50,803 nt of DNA from Crocinitomix sp. (GTDB taxonomy: Bacteria; Bacteroidota; Bacteroidia; Flavobacteriales_D; Crocinitomicaceae): positions 1 through 50,803 of the forward strand of contig JAURQI010000124.1 of NCBI GenBank assembly GCA_030836155.1, written 5' to 3'. A model generated the notes under the pieces. It saw only the letters and a list, made by a program, of their open reading frames with translations, had not been told where the DNA came from and did not search any database. Made by a program: the position numbers and the translations under genes. Positions 33,645 to 46,978 of this stretch are shown one piece after another. The first letter of the stretch is position 1; each line of letters opens with the position of its first letter.

Positions 33645-35024
33645 CTATGATTTGTGATATCCTAGTTTTTTTTCAATGGCTTTAATCATAAGCCCAGCAA
33701 TATCTGTACCAGTAGCACCTTCTATACCTTCTAGTCCAGGAGAAGAATTAACTTCTAATACCATAGGCCCTTTATTCGAACGAATAATGTCTACGCCTGC
33801 AACAGGTAGATTCAATACTTTTGCCGCTTTAACAGCAAGTTTCCGCTCTTCTGGAGTGATTTTAATAACACTCGCTTTGCCTCCCATATGAATATTCGAT
33901 CGGAATTCTCCTTTTTGTGCTTCTCGCTGTATAGAGGCTACCACTTTATAGTCAATAACAAAGCAACGTATATCCTTACCTCCAGCTTCACGGATAAATT
34001 CTTGTACCAATATATTCGCATGTAAACTTTTAAATGCATTGATAACAGATTCAGCGGCCTTACTAGTTTCAGCAAGAACAACTCCTTTACCTTGCGTGCT
34101 TTCTAGCAGTTTTACAATTAGAGGTGCACCACCGACCATCTCGATTAAACCTTTGGTATCTAAAGGAGATTTAGCAAATCCGGTTATAGGCGTGTTTATG
34201 CCGTGTTTGGAAAAGATTTGAGACGAATATAATTTATCCCTTGATTTTAGAATAGCGTCTGCATTGTTCAAAGCATAAGCGTTTAAACTTTCAAATTGGC
34301 GAACCAATGCGCAACCATAATGTGTCATAGAAGGTCTTAGTCTCGGAATAACGGCATCCAATTTATTCAAAATCGTTCCGTCGCGATAGCGAACTTCAGG
34401 ATCCGAACTATCCATCTTCATGTAACACAATTCTGCATTTAAGAACTTCAGATCATGCCCGCGTTCTTCAGCGGCTTCCATGATACGTCTGTTACTATAT
34501 AAATCACGGTTTGTTGCTAATAGTCCTAGTTTTAATCCTGCTAATTCACGCTTTTCATTGATGTAAAATTTCTTAATGTCTTCCTCGTCATAGTCTTTTA
34601 ATAAATACTGACCTGACGGATCAACGATAAATCGACCTTTCATCGCTTCTCTTCCGAGTAGCATGCGAAAGCCCATCGCGTCGCGATTAGCGAGCGTCAT
34701 TTCAATCTCAAAAGACTCTCCATTCATTTCAAGGGTCGTGCGAATAACGTAACGACTTTCACTAGACCCCCCCGTATTCTTTACTTTCCGCACAGCAACA
34801 ATAGGTGCCTCATTTCGAATCGCAATGTGTCGCGACTCAGGTAAAGGATGGATTTCAAACCTCACCCAATCTTCACCATTCTTCGTAAATCGTCGAATAT
34901 CTGAAGCATGTATAGATGAGGTTTGAGCACCGGAGTCAATTCGCGCTCGTATAGCGGGTGTGTTCAATTCGGGAAAAGAACACCATTCTTGACTTCCGAT
35001 AATTGTTAAGTTTTGATCTGTCAT
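33645..35024 (-). CDS. Retropepsin-like (ATP-dependent zinc protease) domain fused to RimK-type ATP-grasp ligase
   Basis: 459 residues in two parts. Residues 1-145 are the PF05618-type putative aspartic/zinc protease domain, with DSGAQTSSIHA (about 31-41) and GREAMKGRFIVDP. Residues 160-455 are a RimK-like ATP-grasp ligase with LKLLESTQGKGVVLAE-like ATP loop (here IVKLLESTQGKGVVLAE), FVIDYKVVASIQRE, GGKASVIKITPEE and the metal motif MVLEVNSSPGLEGIE. RimK adds glutamates to ribosomal protein S6; the target here is not proven. In many genomes the two domains are neighbouring genes. It lies 45 nt before the LRR gene. Confidence 0.88.
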   Translation of the reverse strand: MTDQNLTIIGSQEWCSFPELNTPAIRARIDSGAQTSSIHASDIRRFTKNGEDWVRFEIHPLPESRHIAIRNEAPIVAVRKVKNTGGSSESRYVIRTTLEMNGESFEIEMTLANRDAMGFRMLLGREAMKGRFIVDPSGQYLLKDYDEEDIKKFYINEKRELAGLKLGLLATNRDLYSNRRIMEAAEERGHDLKFLNAELCYMKMDSSDPEVRYRDGTILNKLDAVIPRLRPSMTHYGCALVRQFESLNAYALNNADAILKSRDKLYSSQIFSKHGINTPITGFAKSPLDTKGLIEMVGGAPLIVKLLESTQGKGVVLAETSKAAESVINAFKSLHANILVQEFIREAGGKDIRCFVIDYKVVASIQREAQKGEFRSNIHMGGKASVIKITPEERKLAVKAAKVLNLPVAGVDIIRSNKGPMVLEVNSSPGLEGIEGATGTDIAGLMIKAIEKKLGYHKS

Positions 35025-38732: not shown

Positions 38733-40493
38733 TTAGCTATAAATCTTATCGTATAAATCTTTGTGTCTTTCCAATAAAACACGACGTTTTGGTTTAAGTG
38801 TAGGTGTTAAATCGCCCGATTCAGGTGTCCATAAATGATCCACCAATTCAAAACGTTTGATTTGCTCCCATTTTCCAAATCCAGCATTATATCGATCTAC
38901 TTCTTTTTGTACCCGCTCGATTACGATTTCGCTGCTGGCAATATCAGTTTCGGAAGAACCAATATTATGTCCCTTATGTTTGGCCCATTCTTGGATGAAT
39001 TCAAAAGCAGGAACAATGAAAGCAGCTGGCATTTTTTGATTTTCGCCAATGACCATGATCTGCTCGATAAAACGTGATTCTTTAAACTTGTTTTCCATCA
39101 CCTGTGGAGCAATGTATTTCCCTCCAGATGTTTTGAAAATCTCTTTCTTTCGATCAGTGATTTTTAAGAATTTACCTTCGACGAATTCTCCTATGTCACC
39201 TGTATGGAACCAACCGTCCTTATCAATAGCTTCAGCCGTTTTTTCAGGTTGATTATAATATCCCATCATCACATTCGGTCCTTTCGCCAAAATCTCACCA
39301 TCTTCGGCAATCTTAACTTCGACGTTGTCTAAAACCGGTCCGGTTGTTCCAATACGTACATTATTACCTTCCTCAAAGTTTACACTAATAACAGGAGAAG
39401 TTTCCGTCAAACCATAACCTTCCATCACTGGAATGCCAGCCGCTAAAAAAACCCGCGCTAGACGTGGTTGTAAAGCCGCACTTCCAGAAGCGACTGCCAA
39501 TGTTTGTCCGCCAAGTGCTTCTTGCCATTTGCTAAAAATGAGTTTTCTAGCAACTTTTAATTTAAAATTATACCATCCAGAGCGTCCGACAACATCATAT
39601 TGCTCACCTATGTCAACGGCCCAGAAAAATAGTTTTCTTTTAATACCTGTTAATGCTTCTCCTTTTGCGATAATCTTATCGTATACTTTCTCTAATAGTC
39701 GAGGCACTGCAGTAAATACTTGTGGTTTAACTTCTTTTAAATTATCGCCAATGGTGTCCATTGACTCTGCAAAATAAATAGAAACACCTGTATATTGATA
39801 AAGGTATAATAACATGCGTTCATAGACATGGCAAACGGGCAAAAAACTTAATGATTTCGCCGATGAATCAACCGGTAGGCGTGGCTCACAGGCGATTACA
39901 TTGCTTAGTAAATTCTGGTGAGAAAGCATAACACCTTTTGGATTTCCAGTTGTACCAGAGGTATAAATCAGAGTAACCAAATCTTCATATTTAATCGCTG
40001 CTTTACGTTTCTCAATTTCTGCATCCAATTCAGCATCGGGATCCTCCAATAATTCAGTCCATGATTTTGTGTCGTTCACGGCTTCAAAAACGTAAACCTC
40101 ATTTAGGGTACTTACATTATCGATAATGGAATTAACCTTGTGGTATAATTCCTCATCGGAAACAATGCACAATTTTACACCGGCATCATTAAATATATAA
40201 TCATAATCCTCAGCGCTGATCGTGGGATAAACCGGAACGCCAATGGCGCCGACTTGCTGAATACCAATATCGCAGATATTCCACTCCGATCTATTATTCG
40301 AAATCATGGCAATTTTATCACCTGGTTCAATACCCTTTTTAATTAAACCGCGACTTATAGCATTCGCCTTTTCAATATACTCGGCAGTGGAGGTTTTTCG
40401 CCACTCTCCGTCTACTTTGTCACAGAATGCTTCATCCTGTGGGAATTTTTCCATCTGATAATACGGAAGGTCAAATAATCTTTTTACGTCCAT
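38733..40493 (-). CDS. Long-chain acyl-CoA synthetase (AMP-binding)
   Basis: Activates fatty acids to acyl-CoA through an acyl-adenylate. 586 residues with the AMP-binding P-loop TLIYTSGTTGNPKGVML, motif VMEGYGLTETSPVIS, GWFHTGDIGEF and KITDRKKEIFKTSGGKYIAP. No signal peptide or membrane span. It is the long-chain (FadD15/FAA-like) type rather than acetyl-CoA synthetase. It reads divergently from the ECF sigma gene, and the 207-nt gap holds both promoters. Confidence 0.92.
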   Translation of the reverse strand: MDVKRLFDLPYYQMEKFPQDEAFCDKVDGEWRKTSTAEYIEKANAISRGLIKKGIEPGDKIAMISNNRSEWNICDIGIQQVGAIGVPVYPTISAEDYDYIFNDAGVKLCIVSDEELYHKVNSIIDNVSTLNEVYVFEAVNDTKSWTELLEDPDAELDAEIEKRKAAIKYEDLVTLIYTSGTTGNPKGVMLSHQNLLSNVIACEPRLPVDSSAKSLSFLPVCHVYERMLLYLYQYTGVSIYFAESMDTIGDNLKEVKPQVFTAVPRLLEKVYDKIIAKGEALTGIKRKLFFWAVDIGEQYDVVGRSGWYNFKLKVARKLIFSKWQEALGGQTLAVASGSAALQPRLARVFLAAGIPVMEGYGLTETSPVISVNFEEGNNVRIGTTGPVLDNVEVKIAEDGEILAKGPNVMMGYYNQPEKTAEAIDKDGWFHTGDIGEFVEGKFLKITDRKKEIFKTSGGKYIAPQVMENKFKESRFIEQIMVIGENQKMPAAFIVPAFEFIQEWAKHKGHNIGSSETDIASSEIVIERVQKEVDRYNAGFGKWEQIKRFELVDHLWTPESGDLTPTLKPKRRVLLERHKDLYDKIYS

Positions 40494-40627: not shown

Positions 40628-40657
40628 TGTAACTTTTGGGACCGTTAGATTGTTTTA
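40628..40657 (+). promoter_or_regulatory. Putative ECF-sigma-dependent promoter element, copy 1
   Basis: A 30-nt block starting TGTAACTTTT and ending ATTGTTTTA, 43 nt upstream of the sigma gene. A second copy at 44182-44211 matches at 21 of 30 positions without gaps, including the first ten. An AAC-containing -35 is typical of ECF promoters. Assignment to this sigma factor is inference. Confidence 0.5.
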
Positions 40658-40700: not shown

Positions 40701-41189
40701 TTGACAAGGAAAGAATACAATAGCACAGTGAAAGACTACTCCGGACGTTTGTACGGATTTGCGCTGAAATACCTCAAGAATAAAGAGGATGCTGATGATA
40801 TTGTGCAAGATGCTTTTGAGAAATTGTGGAAGAACAGAAAAAAGGTAGAATTTCAAAAAGCCAAATCATGGCTATTCACCTGTGCACACAATGCCTTGAT
40901 TAATATGATCAAGAAAAATAGTCGAATGACGTATCAAGAAACAACAGTATCTAATCATACGGTTGAGTCGCATGCACATGAATTTGAAATGAAAGAAGTT
41001 GTCGCGAATTGTATGGCAATTTTACCACCTGTTCAAAAGTCGATCATTTTATTGAGAGACCTTGAAGGATATAACTATAAAGAAATTGGAGAAATACTTT
41101 CCTTGTCCGAATCACAAGTGAAAGTTTATCTATTTCGTGCCCGCAAGAAATTAAAGAAACATCTAAAGGATCTAACAGTACTCGTATGA
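40701..41189 (+). CDS. ECF-type RNA polymerase sigma factor
   Basis: 162 residues with the two ECF regions: sigma2 (YGFALKYLKNKEDADDIVQD, with QDAFEKLWKNR after it) and sigma4 (LPPVQKSIILLRDLEGYNY, then YKEIGEILSLSESQVKVYL and FRARKKLKKHL). The start is TTG 40701 (MTRKEYN); an in-frame TAG lies upstream and no ATG fits. The stop overlaps the next gene by 4 nt (ATGA), so the sigma factor and its presumed anti-sigma factor are translationally coupled. Likely autoregulated through the element at 40628. Confidence 0.92.
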   Translation: MTRKEYNSTVKDYSGRLYGFALKYLKNKEDADDIVQDAFEKLWKNRKKVEFQKAKSWLFTCAHNALINMIKKNSRMTYQETTVSNHTVESHAHEFEMKEVVANCMAILPPVQKSIILLRDLEGYNYKEIGEILSLSESQVKVYLFRARKKLKKHLKDLTVLV

Positions 41190-42889
41190 ATATTCACGAA
41201 AATTTTGACAGATGGATGTTCGATTACATGGAAGGGAATCTCTCTTCCGGTGAGGTAGAAGTCTTTGAGCAATTTTTAGCTCAGAACCCTAGCTTTGAGC
41301 CAGACGTAGACGCATGGCAAAACACCGTAATTCCAACAGAAAATGTCATATACCCCAATCAACACAAGCTTGAGCGCAAAAGGAAAGTGGCCGGATGGTA
41401 CGGCTGGGCTGCCGCAGCGGTCTTGATCACTGGATTATTGTTCGGTGGGATTAACTTGATTAACTCAGGCGATTCAAATGATACGCTCGCCTCAGAGCGC
41501 GCAACCACTTCTATCGATTATCATACGAACCATAGTTTCTTTATGCCCACTGAAACCGGTTCAACCGTTACGGACGTTCAATCGAATGATGTAACCGATA
41601 ATCAATTGAACGATTATACAACTAGTTTGACGGCCAATCAGAACGAACGAAATAATGCACAATACGATAGCCGTTCAAACAATACCAATAGTCGACCTGA
41701 TGCAGATGTAAATGGAGAAAGCAATGCTTTAACCACAACACAAAATCATACCAGCTTATTCGATGAGGTACATACTGTTGAAGAAGCAATGATTGTAAAA
41801 GGAGGAAAAGCGATTGATCAGGCACTGGATAATCTAGAGGGTTCTGGTAACGTTGCTTATTATGCAAATAATCCTGGATTGACAGATGTTGAATTAGATT
41901 TAAAACCAAGTTCGAATCTCAAGTTGAATGCCTTCTCTTATAAAGCTAAACGATTCTATAGAAAAGTTGAACGCATGTTAGGTTATCCTGTTGGTTTAAC
42001 GAATCTAAGAGATCCTAGATTAATACTACCAGAAAATGACTTGACTAATTTTAACCCAGCTTTTACAGGCGGACTTTTAAAACCACGTTTTGAAATGAAT
42101 ACCAGAGCGCAGTGGTTGGGATCTGAAATCGCTATGCAACGCAGCAGAATTGCTTTTGATAATTACAGAAGTGGTATCCGCGGTGGTGTTGGAATAAGCA
42201 TTGATGCCGCAACGGCGCATTCAGGTGCTTTTGGTCAATACAGTATTAACTTAACCTATTCACCAAAAATCAATTTAGGAGATAATCTGGTGTTAGAGCC
42301 AGGGATCAAATTAACATTAGGTATGATCGATGGACGCAATGAAAACTTCGGTTCAGTTAATGCATTTGAACTAGAAAGAGGATTGGTATTAAATAAGCCT
42401 GAAGCTTACACGGCCGGAGCCAATCAGATCTGGTACAAAGACTGGGGCGCAGGTTTTGTATTAAATGCTGAAAGAATGTATGTCGGCTTCAGTGCAGATA
42501 ACCTTGGCGGACATTATGCCAGTGTGTATCCAGTTGAAGGAAGCTTTGAGCCTGAAGCTGCACCGGTTCGCTATACAGGAATCATAGGGTTAGATTTCTT
42601 GAAAAACAATCGAGATCGATCTTTTAGTCCGTTTATTACAGGTCGTCATTTTGGAGCAAACACAGAGGGATGGGCAGGATTTAACGCGAGAGTTGGAGCT
42701 TTCACCATGGGTGGTGCTTATTCTACAAAACAAGATTTTGCAGCCTCTATAGGTCTTCAGCTTAAACACGTTAGCCTAACTTATCAATACGATCAATCAA
42801 CTTCCTATGCGTTGAATCAACGGATGGGTTCACATAGCCTCGGATTAAGAATTGTCGGAGGAAAAAGAAAAGTAAGACTCAACAATTAA
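41186..42889 (+). CDS. Dual-membrane anti-sigma factor: anti-sigma domain, TM helix, linker, PorP/SprF-type beta-barrel
   Basis: 567 residues. Residues 1-65 look like a Bacteroidota anti-sigma N-terminus (FDRWMFDYMEGNLSSGEVEV, then FEQFLAQNPSFE). A basic stretch KLERKRK is followed by one transmembrane helix (about 71-93). Residues 94-250 are a low-complexity linker rich in Asn, Thr, Ser and Asp. From about 285 a PorP/SprF-like barrel begins with NFNPAFTGGLLKPRFEMNTR, followed by GGVGISIDAATAHSG and repeated amphipathic strands to the C-terminus. There is no cleavable signal. The same protein would bind the sigma factor inside and sit in the outer membrane, as reported for Dma proteins of Bacteroides thetaiotaomicron. 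Signal and barrel partner are unknown. Confidence 0.82.
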   Translation: MNIHENFDRWMFDYMEGNLSSGEVEVFEQFLAQNPSFEPDVDAWQNTVIPTENVIYPNQHKLERKRKVAGWYGWAAAAVLITGLLFGGINLINSGDSNDTLASERATTSIDYHTNHSFFMPTETGSTVTDVQSNDVTDNQLNDYTTSLTANQNERNNAQYDSRSNNTNSRPDADVNGESNALTTTQNHTSLFDEVHTVEEAMIVKGGKAIDQALDNLEGSGNVAYYANNPGLTDVELDLKPSSNLKLNAFSYKAKRFYRKVERMLGYPVGLTNLRDPRLILPENDLTNFNPAFTGGLLKPRFEMNTRAQWLGSEIAMQRSRIAFDNYRSGIRGGVGISIDAATAHSGAFGQYSINLTYSPKINLGDNLVLEPGIKLTLGMIDGRNENFGSVNAFELERGLVLNKPEAYTAGANQIWYKDWGAGFVLNAERMYVGFSADNLGGHYASVYPVEGSFEPEAAPVRYTGIIGLDFLKNNRDRSFSPFITGRHFGANTEGWAGFNARVGAFTMGGAYSTKQDFAASIGLQLKHVSLTYQYDQSTSYALNQRMGSHSLGLRIVGGKRKVRLNN

Positions 42890-42893
42890 TATT

Positions 42894-43883
42894 ATGAAAA
42901 AAATAATCAGCATATGTGCACTGGTGTTTTCACTCACAGGTTTTTCACAAGACCCTGAGTTTACCCAGTTTTATGCCAATCCGATTTATTTGAATCCAGC
43001 AATGGCCGGAACACATGGTTGCCCTAGGTTAAACATGAATTACAGGAATCAATGGGCTAATATCTCGGGAGCATTTGTAACAAACAGTGTCTCTTACGAC
43101 CAGTTTGTAAATGTTTTGCAAGGTGGTGTAGCTTTGATGGTAACAAACGACATGGCTGGTAAGAATACGCTCAATTGGACAACAATTAATTTAGCGTATT
43201 CTTATCACCTACAAGTATCTCGTAAATTTACCATGCTATTCGGTGCTCAAGCAACTTGGAATCAGAAGTTTTTGGACTGGACAAAGTTGACCTTTGGAGA
43301 TCAAATTGATCCACGAAGAGGATTTATTTATCAAACAGGTGATTTACCAAGAGGTAACTTTTGGAATGATAACGATAGCTGGGGAACAAAAGGTTTCTTT
43401 GATGTTTCAGCTGGTCTTGTGGGCTATTCGGAAAACTTTTATTTCGGATTCGCGGCAAAACACTTGAACACCCCTGAAGAAAGTTTGATTTTGAATCCTG
43501 ACGGCGAAAGTAGAATGCCGATGCGTTTTACTGGTCATATGGGTGCAAATATTGAATTTGGTAAAGGATCACAGTATCAGAATGTGACGGCTATTTCACC
43601 GAATGTGATCTATACTTATCAAGACGGCTTTATGCAGCTAAATGTTGGTACCTACATTAAGTACGGCGCTTTTACGGCGGGTGCTTGGTGGCGTCCAAGA
43701 GATGCATTTATCCTCTCTGTGGGTATTGATGCCGGGTCATTCCGATTTGGTTATAGTTATGATATTACTATTTCTCCTTTGACGAACGCGTCAGGAGGTT
43801 CACATGAATTGTCATTAGGATTCAATTTTAGTTGTAAGGAAAAGCCGAAGCGTTTTAGAACGATTTCGTGTCCTTCATTCTAA
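42894..43883 (+). CDS. PorP/SprF family type IX secretion-associated outer-membrane protein (first copy)
   Basis: 329 residues, signal peptide (cleavage near TGFSQ), then the family start DPEFTQFYANPIYLNPAMAG, the NYRNQW motif, GGVALMVTNDMAGKNTLNW and the closing tail CKEKPKRFRTISCPSF. PorP/SprF proteins are outer-membrane barrels tied to T9SS; SprF is needed for export of the adhesin SprB, and partners often carry type B C-terminal domains. It lies 4 nt after the anti-sigma fusion, so it is in the sigma operon. Its barrel shares the NPA-G/NYR-QW pattern with the anti-sigma fusion. Confidence 0.93.
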   Translation: MKKIISICALVFSLTGFSQDPEFTQFYANPIYLNPAMAGTHGCPRLNMNYRNQWANISGAFVTNSVSYDQFVNVLQGGVALMVTNDMAGKNTLNWTTINLAYSYHLQVSRKFTMLFGAQATWNQKFLDWTKLTFGDQIDPRRGFIYQTGDLPRGNFWNDNDSWGTKGFFDVSAGLVGYSENFYFGFAAKHLNTPEESLILNPDGESRMPMRFTGHMGANIEFGKGSQYQNVTAISPNVIYTYQDGFMQLNVGTYIKYGAFTAGAWWRPRDAFILSVGIDAGSFRFGYSYDITISPLTNASGGSHELSLGFNFSCKEKPKRFRTISCPSF

Positions 43884-43897
43884 TGTCTTGAAAAAAC

Positions 43898-44124
43898 AAT
43901 TCTTTGGGTTTGATCTATTTGTTTGGTTATATTTGAGTCAAACCCAAAGAATTTCAACCTGATATTACTTTGCAAAAATCAGGTTGAGACAGGGGTGGTT
44001 CCCTGTTTTAAAAGTGCGTCATTTTTGTTTGGTACGCACGATTTCTGATCAATTTGATTGATCAGATGATTTCTTTGTTTTGCAAGAAGGGTAAATGGTC
44101 TAATGCTGTTTACCCTTCTTTTGT
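43898..44124 (+). ncRNA. Cluster of six consecutive stem-loops (candidate structured RNA)
   Basis: Within the 475-nt gap between the porP genes, six perfect or near-perfect stems follow each other: 43898-43913/43938-43953 (16 bp), 43954-43963/43978-43987 (10 bp), 43989-43994/44001-44006 (6 bp), 44014-44019/44034-44039 (6 bp), 44045-44052/44058-44065 (8 bp) and 44084-44095/44109-44120 (12 bp, then TTTTG). A TATATTTG box (43928-43935) in the first loop could start a transcript of about 185 nt ending at the last, terminator-like hairpin. No known RNA family is recognised. It may instead be the structured 3' end of the operon mRNA. Confidence 0.45.
44084..44124 (+). terminator. Terminator-like hairpin ending the stem-loop cluster
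   Basis: AAGAAGGGTAAA (44084-44095) pairs with TTTACCCTTCTT (44109-44120), 12 bp, followed by TTG and further T-rich DNA. It probably ends the sigma operon, or the candidate RNA, before the second promoter. Confidence 0.6.
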
Positions 44125-44181
44125 TAAGTGCTGTTTTTCAGTGTTTTGAAGTTAAAAAAAACTCAAAAAAAAGTTTTGTTA

Positions 44182-44211
44182 TGTAACTTTTAAGTCTACT
44201 TAATTGCTTTA
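44182..44211 (+). promoter_or_regulatory. Putative ECF-sigma-dependent promoter element, copy 2
   Basis: TGTAACTTTT ... ATTGCTTTA, the ungapped counterpart of the element upstream of the sigma gene (21/30 identities). It lies 147 nt before the ATG of the second porP gene; the long leader contains a small AGCAT/ATGCT hairpin (44307-44320). Confidence 0.5.
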
Positions 44212-44358
44212 CTTATAAACAAAAATCAAAATAGAAAAGGCCTTTTGTATTGCGATTTCCTTCTTGATTTATTGAATATGATTATCCTGTAAATGCTTTT
44301 GCGTTTAGCATAGTTATGCTCAATATGATTCTGAGGGAATAACCAAAAACTCAATAAT

Positions 44359-45333
44359 ATGCGATACATTTTTCCCTTTATGATCATTCTATTAAATACG
44401 CCTGCAATTGCTCAAGATCCCGAGTTTTCACAATTTTACAGCAATCCGATATATTTAAATCCCGCGATGGCTGGAGCAAATGGATGTCCAGAAATTCATC
44501 TGAATAACCGAGACCAATGGATGAATATTTCAGGAGCCTATGTTACAAATAGCGTCACTTATGATGCTTATGCCCCATCTTTGCGCGGTGGTCTGGCTTT
44601 TATGATTACCAATGACATGGCTGGTCAAAACACACTAAATTGGACAACGGTTAATTTGGCTTACGCTTATCACCTGCAACTATCAGCGAACTGGAAACTG
44701 CAAATAGGCGGGCAGACGAGTTGGAATCAGAAGTTTCTGGACTGGAATAAATTGTCATTTGGCGATCAAATACATCCAAAAGATGGCTTTGTCTATCGAA
44801 CAAATGACTTGCCATCAAACCTCATAAAGAACAGCTCTTGGTCAACACGCGGTTTTTTTGATGTGTCTGCAGGTTTTTTTATTCATAATCCTAAATTTTA
44901 TGCAGGATTTGCGGCAAAGCATCTCAATGAACCTAATCAAAGTATGACATTACGAAATAGCGAACTTTCTGCGCGTTATACTTTTCATGCAGGTTTTAAT
45001 TATGAAATTGGCGGCCAATCTCCAGGTATACAAACCGCCACTGTTTATCCTAATTTTTTGTATACCTATCACTCCGGAGCTAAGCAATGGAATCTTGGAT
45101 GTTATGTCCATTATCGTTCGGTCACTTTTGGTGCTTGGGTAAGAGAAGGAGATGCTTTCATTCTTTCGATGGGAGTTGAAACCGGTGTTTATAAGATAGG
45201 ATATAGTTATGACGCTACCATATCTGCTTTAACAAATGCCTCTGGAGGTTCGCATGAAATTTCATTGAGTTTTTCATTGCCATGCAAAGAGATGCCCAAA
45301 CTCTTTAGGACAGTAAATTGCCCCTCGTTTTAA
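44359..45333 (+). CDS. PorP/SprF family type IX secretion-associated outer-membrane protein (second copy)
   Basis: 324 residues, clearly a paralogue of the preceding porP gene: signal peptide (IAQ), DPEFSQFYSNPIYLNPAMAG, LNNRDQW, GGLAFMITNDMAGQNTLNW and the tail CKEMPKLFRTVNCPSF. It is separated by 475 nt holding the stem-loop cluster and its own promoter-like element, so it can be regulated together with but apart from the sigma operon. A duplication of a complete barrel gene next to a barrel-containing anti-sigma factor suggests an exchangeable partner set. Confidence 0.92.
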   Translation: MRYIFPFMIILLNTPAIAQDPEFSQFYSNPIYLNPAMAGANGCPEIHLNNRDQWMNISGAYVTNSVTYDAYAPSLRGGLAFMITNDMAGQNTLNWTTVNLAYAYHLQLSANWKLQIGGQTSWNQKFLDWNKLSFGDQIHPKDGFVYRTNDLPSNLIKNSSWSTRGFFDVSAGFFIHNPKFYAGFAAKHLNEPNQSMTLRNSELSARYTFHAGFNYEIGGQSPGIQTATVYPNFLYTYHSGAKQWNLGCYVHYRSVTFGAWVREGDAFILSMGVETGVYKIGYSYDATISALTNASGGSHEISLSFSLPCKEMPKLFRTVNCPSF

Positions 45334-45337
45334 ATAA

Positions 45338-46978
45338 TTATCTACCATCAAAAACACATTCGCCATCAACAAATGTCTGCTCTACAAACGTGGTCAAAAT
45401 TTCTGAAGGCGCTATTTTCATGATGTCCTTTGTCAGGATAACAAAATCGGCTGCTTTTCCTTTTTCAAGTGTTCCTTTTTCTTGATCTTCAAAATTAGAA
45501 AAGGCAGGCCAAATGGTCATACCTAGAAGGGCTTCTTCTCGACTTAGGCTTTCATCTGGGTAGAAGCCGCCTTCGGGCGACCCTTCTCGATCTTGACGTG
45601 TGATGGCAGCATAAAATGTCTCTAAAGGATAAATCCGTTCTACTGGAAAATCTGTACCAAGCACAATCATACCCGTTTTGGAAAGCAAGGTTTGGTATGC
45701 GTAAGCGTGCTTCAACCTGTGTTTCCCTAATCTTTGCTCTGCCCATCGCATGTCAGAAGTGCAATGCGTTGGTTGGACAGATGGAATGATATGGTGATTT
45801 TGGAAATAGGCAAAATCTTCTGGTTGAATGACTTGTGCATGTTCAATCTTCCATCGATGATCCGGTTTACCTTGATTAAGATCAGCATATATTTTTAGCA
45901 TGACCCGATTAGCTGAATCTCCGATACAGTGTGTATTCACTTGATAACCAATTTCTGATGCGAAGTAAGCAATGTCATATAAAGCAGCAGAATCACGTAA
46001 TAAAAACCCATAATGGTCTGTCAAATCAGAATAAGGTGAAATAAGACAAGCGCCTCTGGAGCCTAAAGCACCATCAGCCAATAGTTTAAATGATCCGATA
46101 TGGAGGTTGCCAATATTTTTTATTCCTTCTGTTTTTGCAAAATCGAGGTTTTCATCATCCGCAAATAACATGGCATAAGACTTAATGGTAAGGTCATTAT
46201 TGCCATACCATTGCTCGAAAAGTTCGCGATCTTCATGATTGATTCCCGCGTCATTAAGAGAGGTCAAACCAACTTCAAAAAGACTGTTTTCTGCTCTTTT
46301 TAAATAGGCTAGTTTTGTGTCAGGATCCATTTCTGGTATTACACCCGCAACCAGATCATAGGCATTATCAAGCAATATTCCGGTCAAATTGCCGTCTATA
46401 ACTTCAATCCATCCGCCTTCAATAACCGTAGCAGATGTAATTCCAGCAAGATCTAATGCGGCTTGATTGGCTAACGCCGCATGTCCATCTACTCTCCGTA
46501 TCAAAATAGGTCGGTCTGGAAATAATTCATTTAAACGAGCATTGTTTGGGAATGCAGCAGGATCCCAAAGGGTCTGATCCCAACCGCGTCCCTCAATCCA
46601 TTCCGTCTCACATGTTTCAGCAAAGGATTGAATCCGATCAATACATTCGTCAAAGGAAGCGGACCCAGTCAAATCTGCTTGGGCTAGTGTTTTTGCATAT
46701 CCCCAAAAATGGGCATGACCGTCATGAAATCCGGGGAAAACGGGTCTTAATTGCGCATCTATTAGATGATCACATTTGTAGCCATTTAGAATTTCTCTTT
46801 CGGGTCCGAGTTGTATGATTTTTCCATCTCTAATCGCCATAGCTTCATAGATGGTAAATGATTCATCACAACTGTAAATTTGAGCGTTGTGTATGATTAA
46901 ATCGGCACTGTCGCCTTGATAGCATCCAGTAAATAAGAGCAAGGAAAATAAGCCCGCAATAAAACGATTAGTTTTCAT
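45338..46978 (-). CDS. YtcJ-like amidohydrolase lipoprotein
   Basis: 546-residue metal-dependent amidohydrolase with lipobox FTGC (Cys19). The N-terminal composite domain leads to metal motif GFHDGHAHFWG; GSFKLLADGALGSRGA, HCIGDSANR, KIEHAQVI and VLGTDFPVE mark the YtcJ/imidazolonepropionase-like family, and GTLEKGKAADFVIL closes it. The cyclic amide substrate is not evident. It ends head-on 4 nt from the second porP gene and overlaps a tiny upstream membrane ORF by 11 nt. Confidence 0.87.
   Translation of the reverse strand: MKTNRFIAGLFSLLLFTGCYQGDSADLIIHNAQIYSCDESFTIYEAMAIRDGKIIQLGPEREILNGYKCDHLIDAQLRPVFPGFHDGHAHFWGYAKTLAQADLTGSASFDECIDRIQSFAETCETEWIEGRGWDQTLWDPAAFPNNARLNELFPDRPILIRRVDGHAALANQAALDLAGITSATVIEGGWIEVIDGNLTGILLDNAYDLVAGVIPEMDPDTKLAYLKRAENSLFEVGLTSLNDAGINHEDRELFEQWYGNNDLTIKSYAMLFADDENLDFAKTEGIKNIGNLHIGSFKLLADGALGSRGACLISPYSDLTDHYGFLLRDSAALYDIAYFASEIGYQVNTHCIGDSANRVMLKIYADLNQGKPDHRWKIEHAQVIQPEDFAYFQNHHIIPSVQPTHCTSDMRWAEQRLGKHRLKHAYAYQTLLSKTGMIVLGTDFPVERIYPLETFYAAITRQDREGSPEGGFYPDESLSREEALLGMTIWPAFSNFEDQEKGTLEKGKAADFVILTKDIMKIAPSEILTTFVEQTFVDGECVFDGR

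Follow-up and report, generated by a model that had tools for sequence, protein, structure and literature searches.

Why should a putative anti-sigma factor end in an outer-membrane barrel of the family that serves the type IX secretion system (T9SS)? The question is raised by contig JAURQI010000124.1 of Crocinitomix sp. (assembly GCA_030836155.1); the whole stretch analysed, 50,803 nucleotides, is called the window here. In it, the gene of an extracytoplasmic function (ECF) sigma factor is followed by a fusion gene coding for an anti-sigma-like N-terminal domain, one transmembrane helix, a long polar linker and a PorP/SprF-type barrel, and then by genes for two standalone PorPs, PorP1 and PorP2. 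The reading that we favour, at a probability of about 0.4, is that the fusion is a sensor that mimics PorP and adjusts the supply of a T9SS and gliding shuttle. New in this locus are a conserved promoter-like element, a twin of PorP1 that is linked to gldJ and shares its C-terminal tail, and the grouping of the fused barrels with that type of PorP. Genomes, loci, contigs and families carry our own labels (G, L, C and f).

A conserved fusion of an anti-sigma-like domain and a PorP-type barrel

The sigma protein exceeds the cut-offs of Pfam Sigma70_r2 (63.4 bits) and Sigma70_r4_2 (63 bits) and of NCBIfam NF058625 (137.4 bits, cut-off 130), and the end of its gene overlaps the start of the fusion gene by 4 nt (Table 1). 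The N-terminus of the fusion gives a weak library match to NF052375 (22 bits, cut-off 100). With hhalign it aligns over 62 columns (96.7%, E 4e-10) with the N-terminal parts of three further proteins encoded next to sigma genes, themselves putative anti-sigma factors, one of them from the same genome. Because of its position behind the ECF sigma gene and this homology, an anti-sigma function is likely. There follow a single hydrophobic stretch from residue 74, with five basic residues before it and one after, and a linker of 192 residues, 61% of which are N/S/T/Q/G/D/E/K/P. The fusion does not have the signal peptide form of the standalone proteins, as its barrel begins at residue 285, after helix and linker.

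The barrel matches PF11751 (PorP_SprF) at residues 289-555 with 85.5 bits (cut-off 22.3). It passes the TIGR03519 cut-off of 90.55 bits when scored alone (92.1 bits), whereas the whole fusion falls just under it (89.9 bits). An AlphaFold2 model from a shallow alignment of 13 rows (mean predicted local distance difference test score, pLDDT, 51.9; predicted template modelling score 0.46) contains 14 long strands at residues 301-557, with block pLDDT mostly of 63-80 and dips to 40-55 at two places. It also shows two N-terminal helices (block pLDDT 55-76 across residues 1-40) and a long helix at residues 60-93, with pLDDT below 50 there and throughout residues 40-277. Foldseek matches of the fused barrel are outer-membrane barrels, with porins at the top, the 14-stranded OmpG (2f1c, target template modelling (TM) score 0.64), FadL, and chain F of the T9SS translocon entries 8gl6 and 6h3i, which we take to be PorV. 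The PorP1 model (mean pLDDT 68.5) has the same number of long strands; its top match is a FadL mutant, and 6h3i_F is found at TM 0.54/0.52. PorP-like proteins have been described as 14-stranded barrels of the FadL family (PMC9143113). A sequence search of the PDB with PorP or the fusion gave no relevant match.

Table 1. Features of the sigma-fusion-PorP locus, in window positions
Feature	Position	Strand	Remarks
Predicted ECF-type promoter element of the operon, TGTAACTTTT-N12-TTGTTTTA	40628..40657	+	Conserved before sigma; only exact strict match in own genome
ECF sigma factor gene	40701..41189	+	162 aa, TTG start
Anti-sigma-like/PorP fusion gene	41186..42889	+	567 aa; Pfam, NCBIfam, AlphaFold2 model
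Anti-sigma-like N-terminal domain	41186..41383	+	Residues 1-66; motif WxFxxxEGNL; alignment conservation, hhalign, model
Transmembrane helix	41405..41461	+	Residues 74-92; hydropathy
Polar, predicted disordered periplasmic linker	41462..42037	+	Residues 93-284
PorP/SprF-type 14-strand barrel	42038..42886	+	Residues 285-567; no cysteine, basic tail
PorP1 gene	42894..43883	+	PF11751 205.5 bits; apparent signal peptide
PorP1 C-terminal tail FRTISCPSF	43854..43880	+	Tail type shared by PorPs of operon and gldJ loci and by a DUF4139 protein
Second element copy, before PorP2	44182..44211	+	1 mismatch to strict form
PorP2 gene	44359..45333	+	PF11751 197.4 bits; tail FRTVNCPSF

An earlier note, made from the letters of the window, had placed the four genes correctly. 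It had read them as a sigma/anti-sigma pair with a PorP/SprF-type barrel built like the dual-membrane-spanning anti-sigma (Dma) factors; the profile searches, the hhalign similarity and the model, for all its low overall confidence, agree with this, as does the layout, adjoining an ECF sigma gene, of one helix, long tether and C-terminal barrel. Of the order of genes that it suggested surveying, sigma, fusion and one PorP recur in every aligned locus, as described below. The conserved element, the gldJ-linked twin of PorP1, the cysteine tail and the wide occurrence of the gene go beyond what it had stated.

At least 113 of the 245 genomes surveyed in the order carry a long fusion frame. The count comprises 79 near end-to-end matches, 33 frames of at least 497 codons for which the listed match covers part of the profile, mostly the barrel, and one genome (G057) from a search of 59 relatives. 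Both of the partly matched frames that were fetched (G556 and G560) start with the N-terminal motif; G502, G513, G525 and G585, in which the frame is split or cut, were excluded. Carriers make up 99/155 genomes of family f1, 8/16 of f3, 3/3 of f10, 1/1 of f11 and 2/6 of f13; no fusion occurs among the listed matches of the same survey for the 64 genomes of seven other families. All four named relatives that were retrieved are metagenome-assembled genomes of Crocinitomix. A search of 392 genomes across the phylum, few of them from the order and mostly with the three best candidates per genome scored, gave no further end-to-end match.

The ratio of non-synonymous to synonymous substitution rates (dN/dS) in five pairs is 0.05-0.34 in the N-terminus and 0.02-0.11 in the barrel, and rises to 0.11-0.49 in the linker, so that on these figures the fusion is made of two constrained ends plus a tether. 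Since the same long frame is present in so many genomes and dN/dS is low in both end domains, an artefact, frameshift or assembly accident is excluded as its origin. In an alignment of 24 fusions, the window's included, each has one helix segment, the best starting at residue 67-80, and its barrel follows a linker of 177-281 residues. Nine positions are invariant (M1, N6, W10, F12, E16, G17, L19, F30 and W44), and 20 of the 24 proteins contain no cysteine at all. The fused barrels of six genomes of the same genus are 39-50% identical to that of the window.

The neighbours are as constant as the fusion itself. Sigma directly precedes it in 24/24 aligned loci, with the 4-nt overlap in 22 (1 nt in L016, 14 nt in L022), and a PorP gene lies behind it in all 24; 17 of these are complete and end in a CP(S/T)F tail, and in seven the start is visible before the gene is cut by the end of the contig or locus. 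Both neighbours also flank the fusion in four of four further whole loci (L195-L198). The TTG start codon of the sigma gene recurs in 32/32 loci and perhaps keeps sigma below its anti-sigma factor.

Two other proteins were noted on the way. A 594-codon frame of G095 (L131:2533-4254) was rejected as a relative: it is another natural PorP fusion, with a different C-terminal domain that looks OmpA-like by eye. In G085, a sigma-adjacent protein of 389 residues (L125:1995-3161) has a C-terminus that is barrel-like by eye and no Pfam barrel match; it may be another barrel anti-sigma factor. The sigma family NF058625 was of little use as a guide to homologous systems, for its relatives in other classes mostly have short, barrel-less neighbours (by eye, among the matches listed).

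PorP1, its gldJ-linked twin and the ancestry of the fused barrel

The genome of the window has 15 places that match PF11751, the fusion included, and one of its PorPs has porV-porU on one side and gldJ on the other (NCBIfam). In 18 of the 22 genomes examined, gldJ follows such a PorP; in three of the exceptions (G016, G045, G054) the remaining copy was not fetched, and the copy of G011 (L188) shows no gldJ in 1.5 kb. PorP1 and the gldJ-linked PorP share 95.2% of their amino acids, 80.6% of their DNA and 51.8% of third codon positions. Identity of the proteins at such a level despite the divergence of third positions indicates that the same PorP sequence is maintained at both loci. In G012 and G014 the two copies are nearly identical in DNA also, as after recent copying, and in seven of ten genomes no pairing of the operon copy across genomes is as close as the pair within the genome (the exceptions are G001, G006 and G027). 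As the twins are near-identical and the fused barrels of the six same-genus genomes are only 39-50% identical to that of the window, what the switch controls seems to be an additional source of a protein that has to stay unchanged, and the sensor itself was free to diverge.

In an unrooted tree of 73 PorP domains the 24 fused barrels form one clade (100/100). It lies on the same side as the PorPs of the operon and of the gldJ loci, and a split (95/98) sets it off from ten other PorPs of the window's genome, in keeping with the link to T9SS and gliding that the earlier note had drawn: the PorPs closest to the barrel belong to the type whose gene lies between porU and gldJ. Some of the ten others adjoin large secreted proteins, such as that of L037 with a CHU_C type IX signal, and two adjoin gldK (NCBIfam) and apparent gldL, gldM and gldN (by eye). 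A divergent PorP on contig C82 groups with these ten on a very long branch.

PorP1 and the gldJ-linked PorP of its genome both end in FRTISCPSF, and gldJ-linked PorPs generally end in FRT(I/V)SCPSF or a near variant. A DNA pattern for this tail finds 39 places in 20/22 genomes (reversed control 0). Of the 17 fusion carriers 15 have at least two, G013 has one and G045, whose tails deviate, none; four of the five fusion-less genomes have one each and G038 none. The 30 tail loci delivered all lie on PorPs except L166 (G006) and L168 (G011), the C-termini of which resemble a DUF4139 protein of G027. That DUF4140/DUF4139 protein (L147:2172-3920, Pfam) also ends in the tail and is encoded behind sigma's promoter element; in G007, gldJ is followed by the gene of a DUF4139 protein that lacks the tail (L136:194-1930, Pfam). 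The cysteine tail is common to two unrelated envelope families.

A Cys-X-Cys tail was reported to bind SprF to the gliding-track protein GldK (PMC12635249). PorP1 instead has C314 and C326 near its C-terminus, with 11 residues between them, and the fusion has no cysteine. The GldK of the window's genome has four cysteines besides one at residue 18, and a covalent link of SCPSF-tailed PorPs to the track would be a guess. Just 3' of PorP1, the window contains a perfect 16-bp inverted repeat with a 24-nt loop (43898-43953) that is not followed by a run of T.

A predicted promoter element and its putative regulon

ECF promoters have an AAC box and, 16-17 nt on, a -10 box. The element TGTAACTTTT-N11/12-TTGTTTTA, which can be written as GTAAC-N16/17-TGTTTTA, resembles this arrangement and is predicted from its conservation to be an ECF-type promoter. 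It lies upstream of sigma in all 32 filtered loci and starts 48-75 nt before the TTG codon. With at most two mismatches it is found in 31/32 loci and with at most three in 32/32, against 1/1920 dinucleotide-shuffled sequences at two. Five further genomes (L021, L096, L195, L196, L197) have it before sigma with at most three mismatches, which brings the total to 37/37 genomes scored; loci whose start or N-terminus missed the filters were not scored, nor was L017, with too little upstream DNA.

The relaxed pattern has three matches in the window's genome, before sigma, before PorP2 and inside a frame on contig C154 (reversed control 0). Allowing two mismatches raises this to six (reversed control 1): those before sigma and PorP2, one before the gene of a lipoprotein of about 130 residues (C102), one 5 nt before the frame of the divergent PorP of C82, and two inside genes. 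The earlier note had let both PorP genes simply follow the fusion. They are indeed both present, but a gap of 475 nt separates PorP1 from PorP2, and PorP2 is preceded by a separate copy of the element.

Seventeen genomes of the family yield 31 strict matches in 16 of them (G013 has none; reversed control 0), 16 before sigma and 15 elsewhere. For 12 of the latter a downstream frame within 200 nt has a start that by eye resembles a lipoprotein or a signal peptide. These 12 include a standalone SCPSF-tailed PorP (G016), the same lipoprotein (G007, G012, G027) and the DUF4139 protein of G027.

As for the lipoprotein gene, the element precedes it within 1 kb, with at most three mismatches, in 15/17 fusion-carrying and 2/12 fusion-less genomes (Fisher p 3e-4, uncorrected for shared ancestry). 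This count draws on 30 loci delivered from matches in 55 genomes and omits G002, an 84% complete genome in which no fusion was seen and which has the element before the lipoprotein. On a shorter upstream stretch, which misses tandem copies, the figures are 9/16 carriers and 1/12 others with G002 included and L220 and L221 not scored. Co-occurrence of the lipoprotein itself with the fusion was uninformative, for its relatives are present in 55/59 genomes and the difference lies in the element only.

The operon is flanked by a divergent gene similar to those of AMP (adenosine monophosphate) ligases (38733-40493, minus strand) and a convergent amidohydrolase-like gene (45338-46978, minus strand). 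Both flanks recur in G641 (L195), the ligase-like gene before the operon in G045 (L196) and the amidohydrolase-like gene after it in G556 (L198), all by eye. With similar flanking genes in these loci, the fusion operon looks like an old, vertically kept locus. Farther away, a minus-strand gene of the window (33645-35024) codes for a RimK-type ligase (residues 165-454, above cut-off) behind a retropepsin-like RimB/RloA domain (residues 4-141, below cut-off).

A proposed PorP mimic as sensor, and its rivals

If the favoured reading holds, the anti-sigma factor would be a single polypeptide that runs from the cytoplasm through the inner membrane and the periplasm into the outer membrane, where it would end in a diverged copy of the T9SS and gliding shuttle. 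At rest, the N-terminus would keep the ECF sigma factor at the inner membrane. The trigger might be the encounter of the PorP-like barrel with a ligand meant for the real PorP, candidates being an unclaimed type B cargo domain and a component of the track or translocon, or some other disturbance of the barrel. The change would be relayed along the tether and release sigma by a pull, by refolding or by proteolysis, and the freed sigma would transcribe the operon that encodes it, PorP1 included, as well as PorP2 and the genes of a few envelope proteins, until enough PorP is available again. It is tempting to speculate further that a cysteine-less, tethered paralogue of the shuttle samples the cargo or track partners that belong to the genuine PorP and turns on the expression of its second copy, a secretion gauge by mimicry, although we hold this form of the idea only tentatively.

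Several observations weigh against this reading. The tree is unrooted and the branch of the fused clade long (1.95), the confidence of the fusion model is low overall, and distance correlation with sigma (0.855 for the N-terminus, 0.885 for the barrel) does not single out the N-terminus as the partner. The operon contains no type B cargo gene. In the f13 carriers G057 and G451, whose loci (L138, L139) lie outside the alignment, no PorP is found downstream of the fusion and hmmscan gives no PF11751 match for the fused barrel; both genomes have standalone PorPs with the tail elsewhere, and to judge from these loci an adjacent PorP is dispensable. The gldJ-linked PorP type is also present in genomes that lack the switch (G025, G038, G043, G050, G053), and that of the window's genome has no element match at up to two mismatches. 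In L032 and L034 the second PorP has no TGTAAC within 320 nt upstream. Finally, three of the 15 strict matches elsewhere have no frame within 200 nt, and others in relatives precede further outer-membrane-like proteins. Because the element also precedes such envelope genes, the predicted regulon reaches beyond PorP, and a broader envelope role is possible.

The first alternative is a generic outer-membrane or vesiculation regulator of the Dma kind, in which the barrel would be only an anchor or a reporter of membrane state, with no T9SS ligand. The domain order is that of the Dma factors, two of which, Dma1 and Dma2, affect vesiculation in Bacteroides thetaiotaomicron (PMC13088901), and the element matches include several barrel-like and lipoprotein genes. 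However, the clearest predicted targets in the window's genome are PorP genes (the operon's own, PorP2 and the divergent PorP), and the fused barrel groups with the gldJ-linked type, which makes this alternative doubtful. A second is that the fusion is a sentinel of outer-membrane protein assembly: a barrel that fails to insert would leave linker and barrel exposed to cleavage, and the anti-sigma domain would be destroyed. Proteolysis is a common end of anti-sigma factors, and a polar linker of 177-281 residues is present in all 24 aligned fusions. None of the six element matches of the window's genome precedes a gene recognisable by eye as an assembly factor or chaperone, and we regard the sentinel as improbable. 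Still less probable is that PorP1 acts as an obligate partner or co-sensor on the barrel or tether, the signal being loaded versus empty PorP1: a PorP does stand directly behind the fusion in every aligned locus, but G057 and G451 carry the fusion without it. That the fusion is mainly a tethered shuttle with a vestigial N-terminus, as the weak library matches of that domain might suggest, is very hard to reconcile with its low dN/dS in 5/5 pairs, its nine invariant residues and the sigma gene upstream in 24/24 loci.

The favoured sensor would belong to a kind already known, since its architecture is that of the published Dma anti-sigma factors, with an N-terminal anti-sigma domain (a putative one in the fusion), one helix, a long disordered tether and a C-terminal barrel (PMC13088901). 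Dma genes likewise adjoin a sigma gene, of the ECF21 group, and dma2 lies in a three-gene operon (PMC13088901). The likeness is one of architecture; the fusion differs in its barrel of the PorP/SprF family and in the PorP genes of its operon, and is not known to be linked to vesicles or a polysaccharide utilization locus. Compared with the PorP/SprF shuttles (PMC9143113, PMC12618676, PMC12635249), its barrel is of the same family and has as many strands; in domain content and, by eye, in their signal-peptide start PorP1 and PorP2 are ordinary members, whereas in the fusion the anti-sigma-like domain, helix and tether replace the signal peptide and the cysteine tail is missing. An orphan shuttle, not directly behind a type B gene, serves three cargos bound for the gliding machinery (PMC12618676), so an orphan PorP as found here has a precedent. 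In Porphyromonas gingivalis, PorA-PorXY-SigP also relays surface or T9SS state to an ECF sigma factor, there by a surface C-terminal domain protein and a two-component system, a task that in the fusion would fall to one anti-sigma protein; the surface component PorA was found only in Porphyromonas (PMC7712824).

In TonB-receptor/FecR/FecI signalling, too, an outer-membrane barrel controls an ECF sigma factor, through two separate membrane proteins where the fusion would use one polypeptide. Within the openly licensed PMC papers searched, we found no description of a PorP barrel on an anti-sigma factor; as far as these searches reach, both this version, of which the earlier note knew no description, and its circuit are undescribed.

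To our knowledge, little has been established about how Bacteroidota sense the condition of their T9SS and gliding track. If mimicry is the mechanism, the fusion would give a direct readout of T9SS shuttle occupancy from the outer membrane to RNA polymerase in one polypeptide. The reason for the barrel would then be that it is a copy of the very part whose supply is regulated. Should the favoured reading hold, a large clade of Bacteroidota would use a one-protein gauge, of which the input, a PorP ligand, and the output, PorP genes with a defined element, are known well enough for testing, and the Dma class would extend from vesicles and glycans to secretion and motility.

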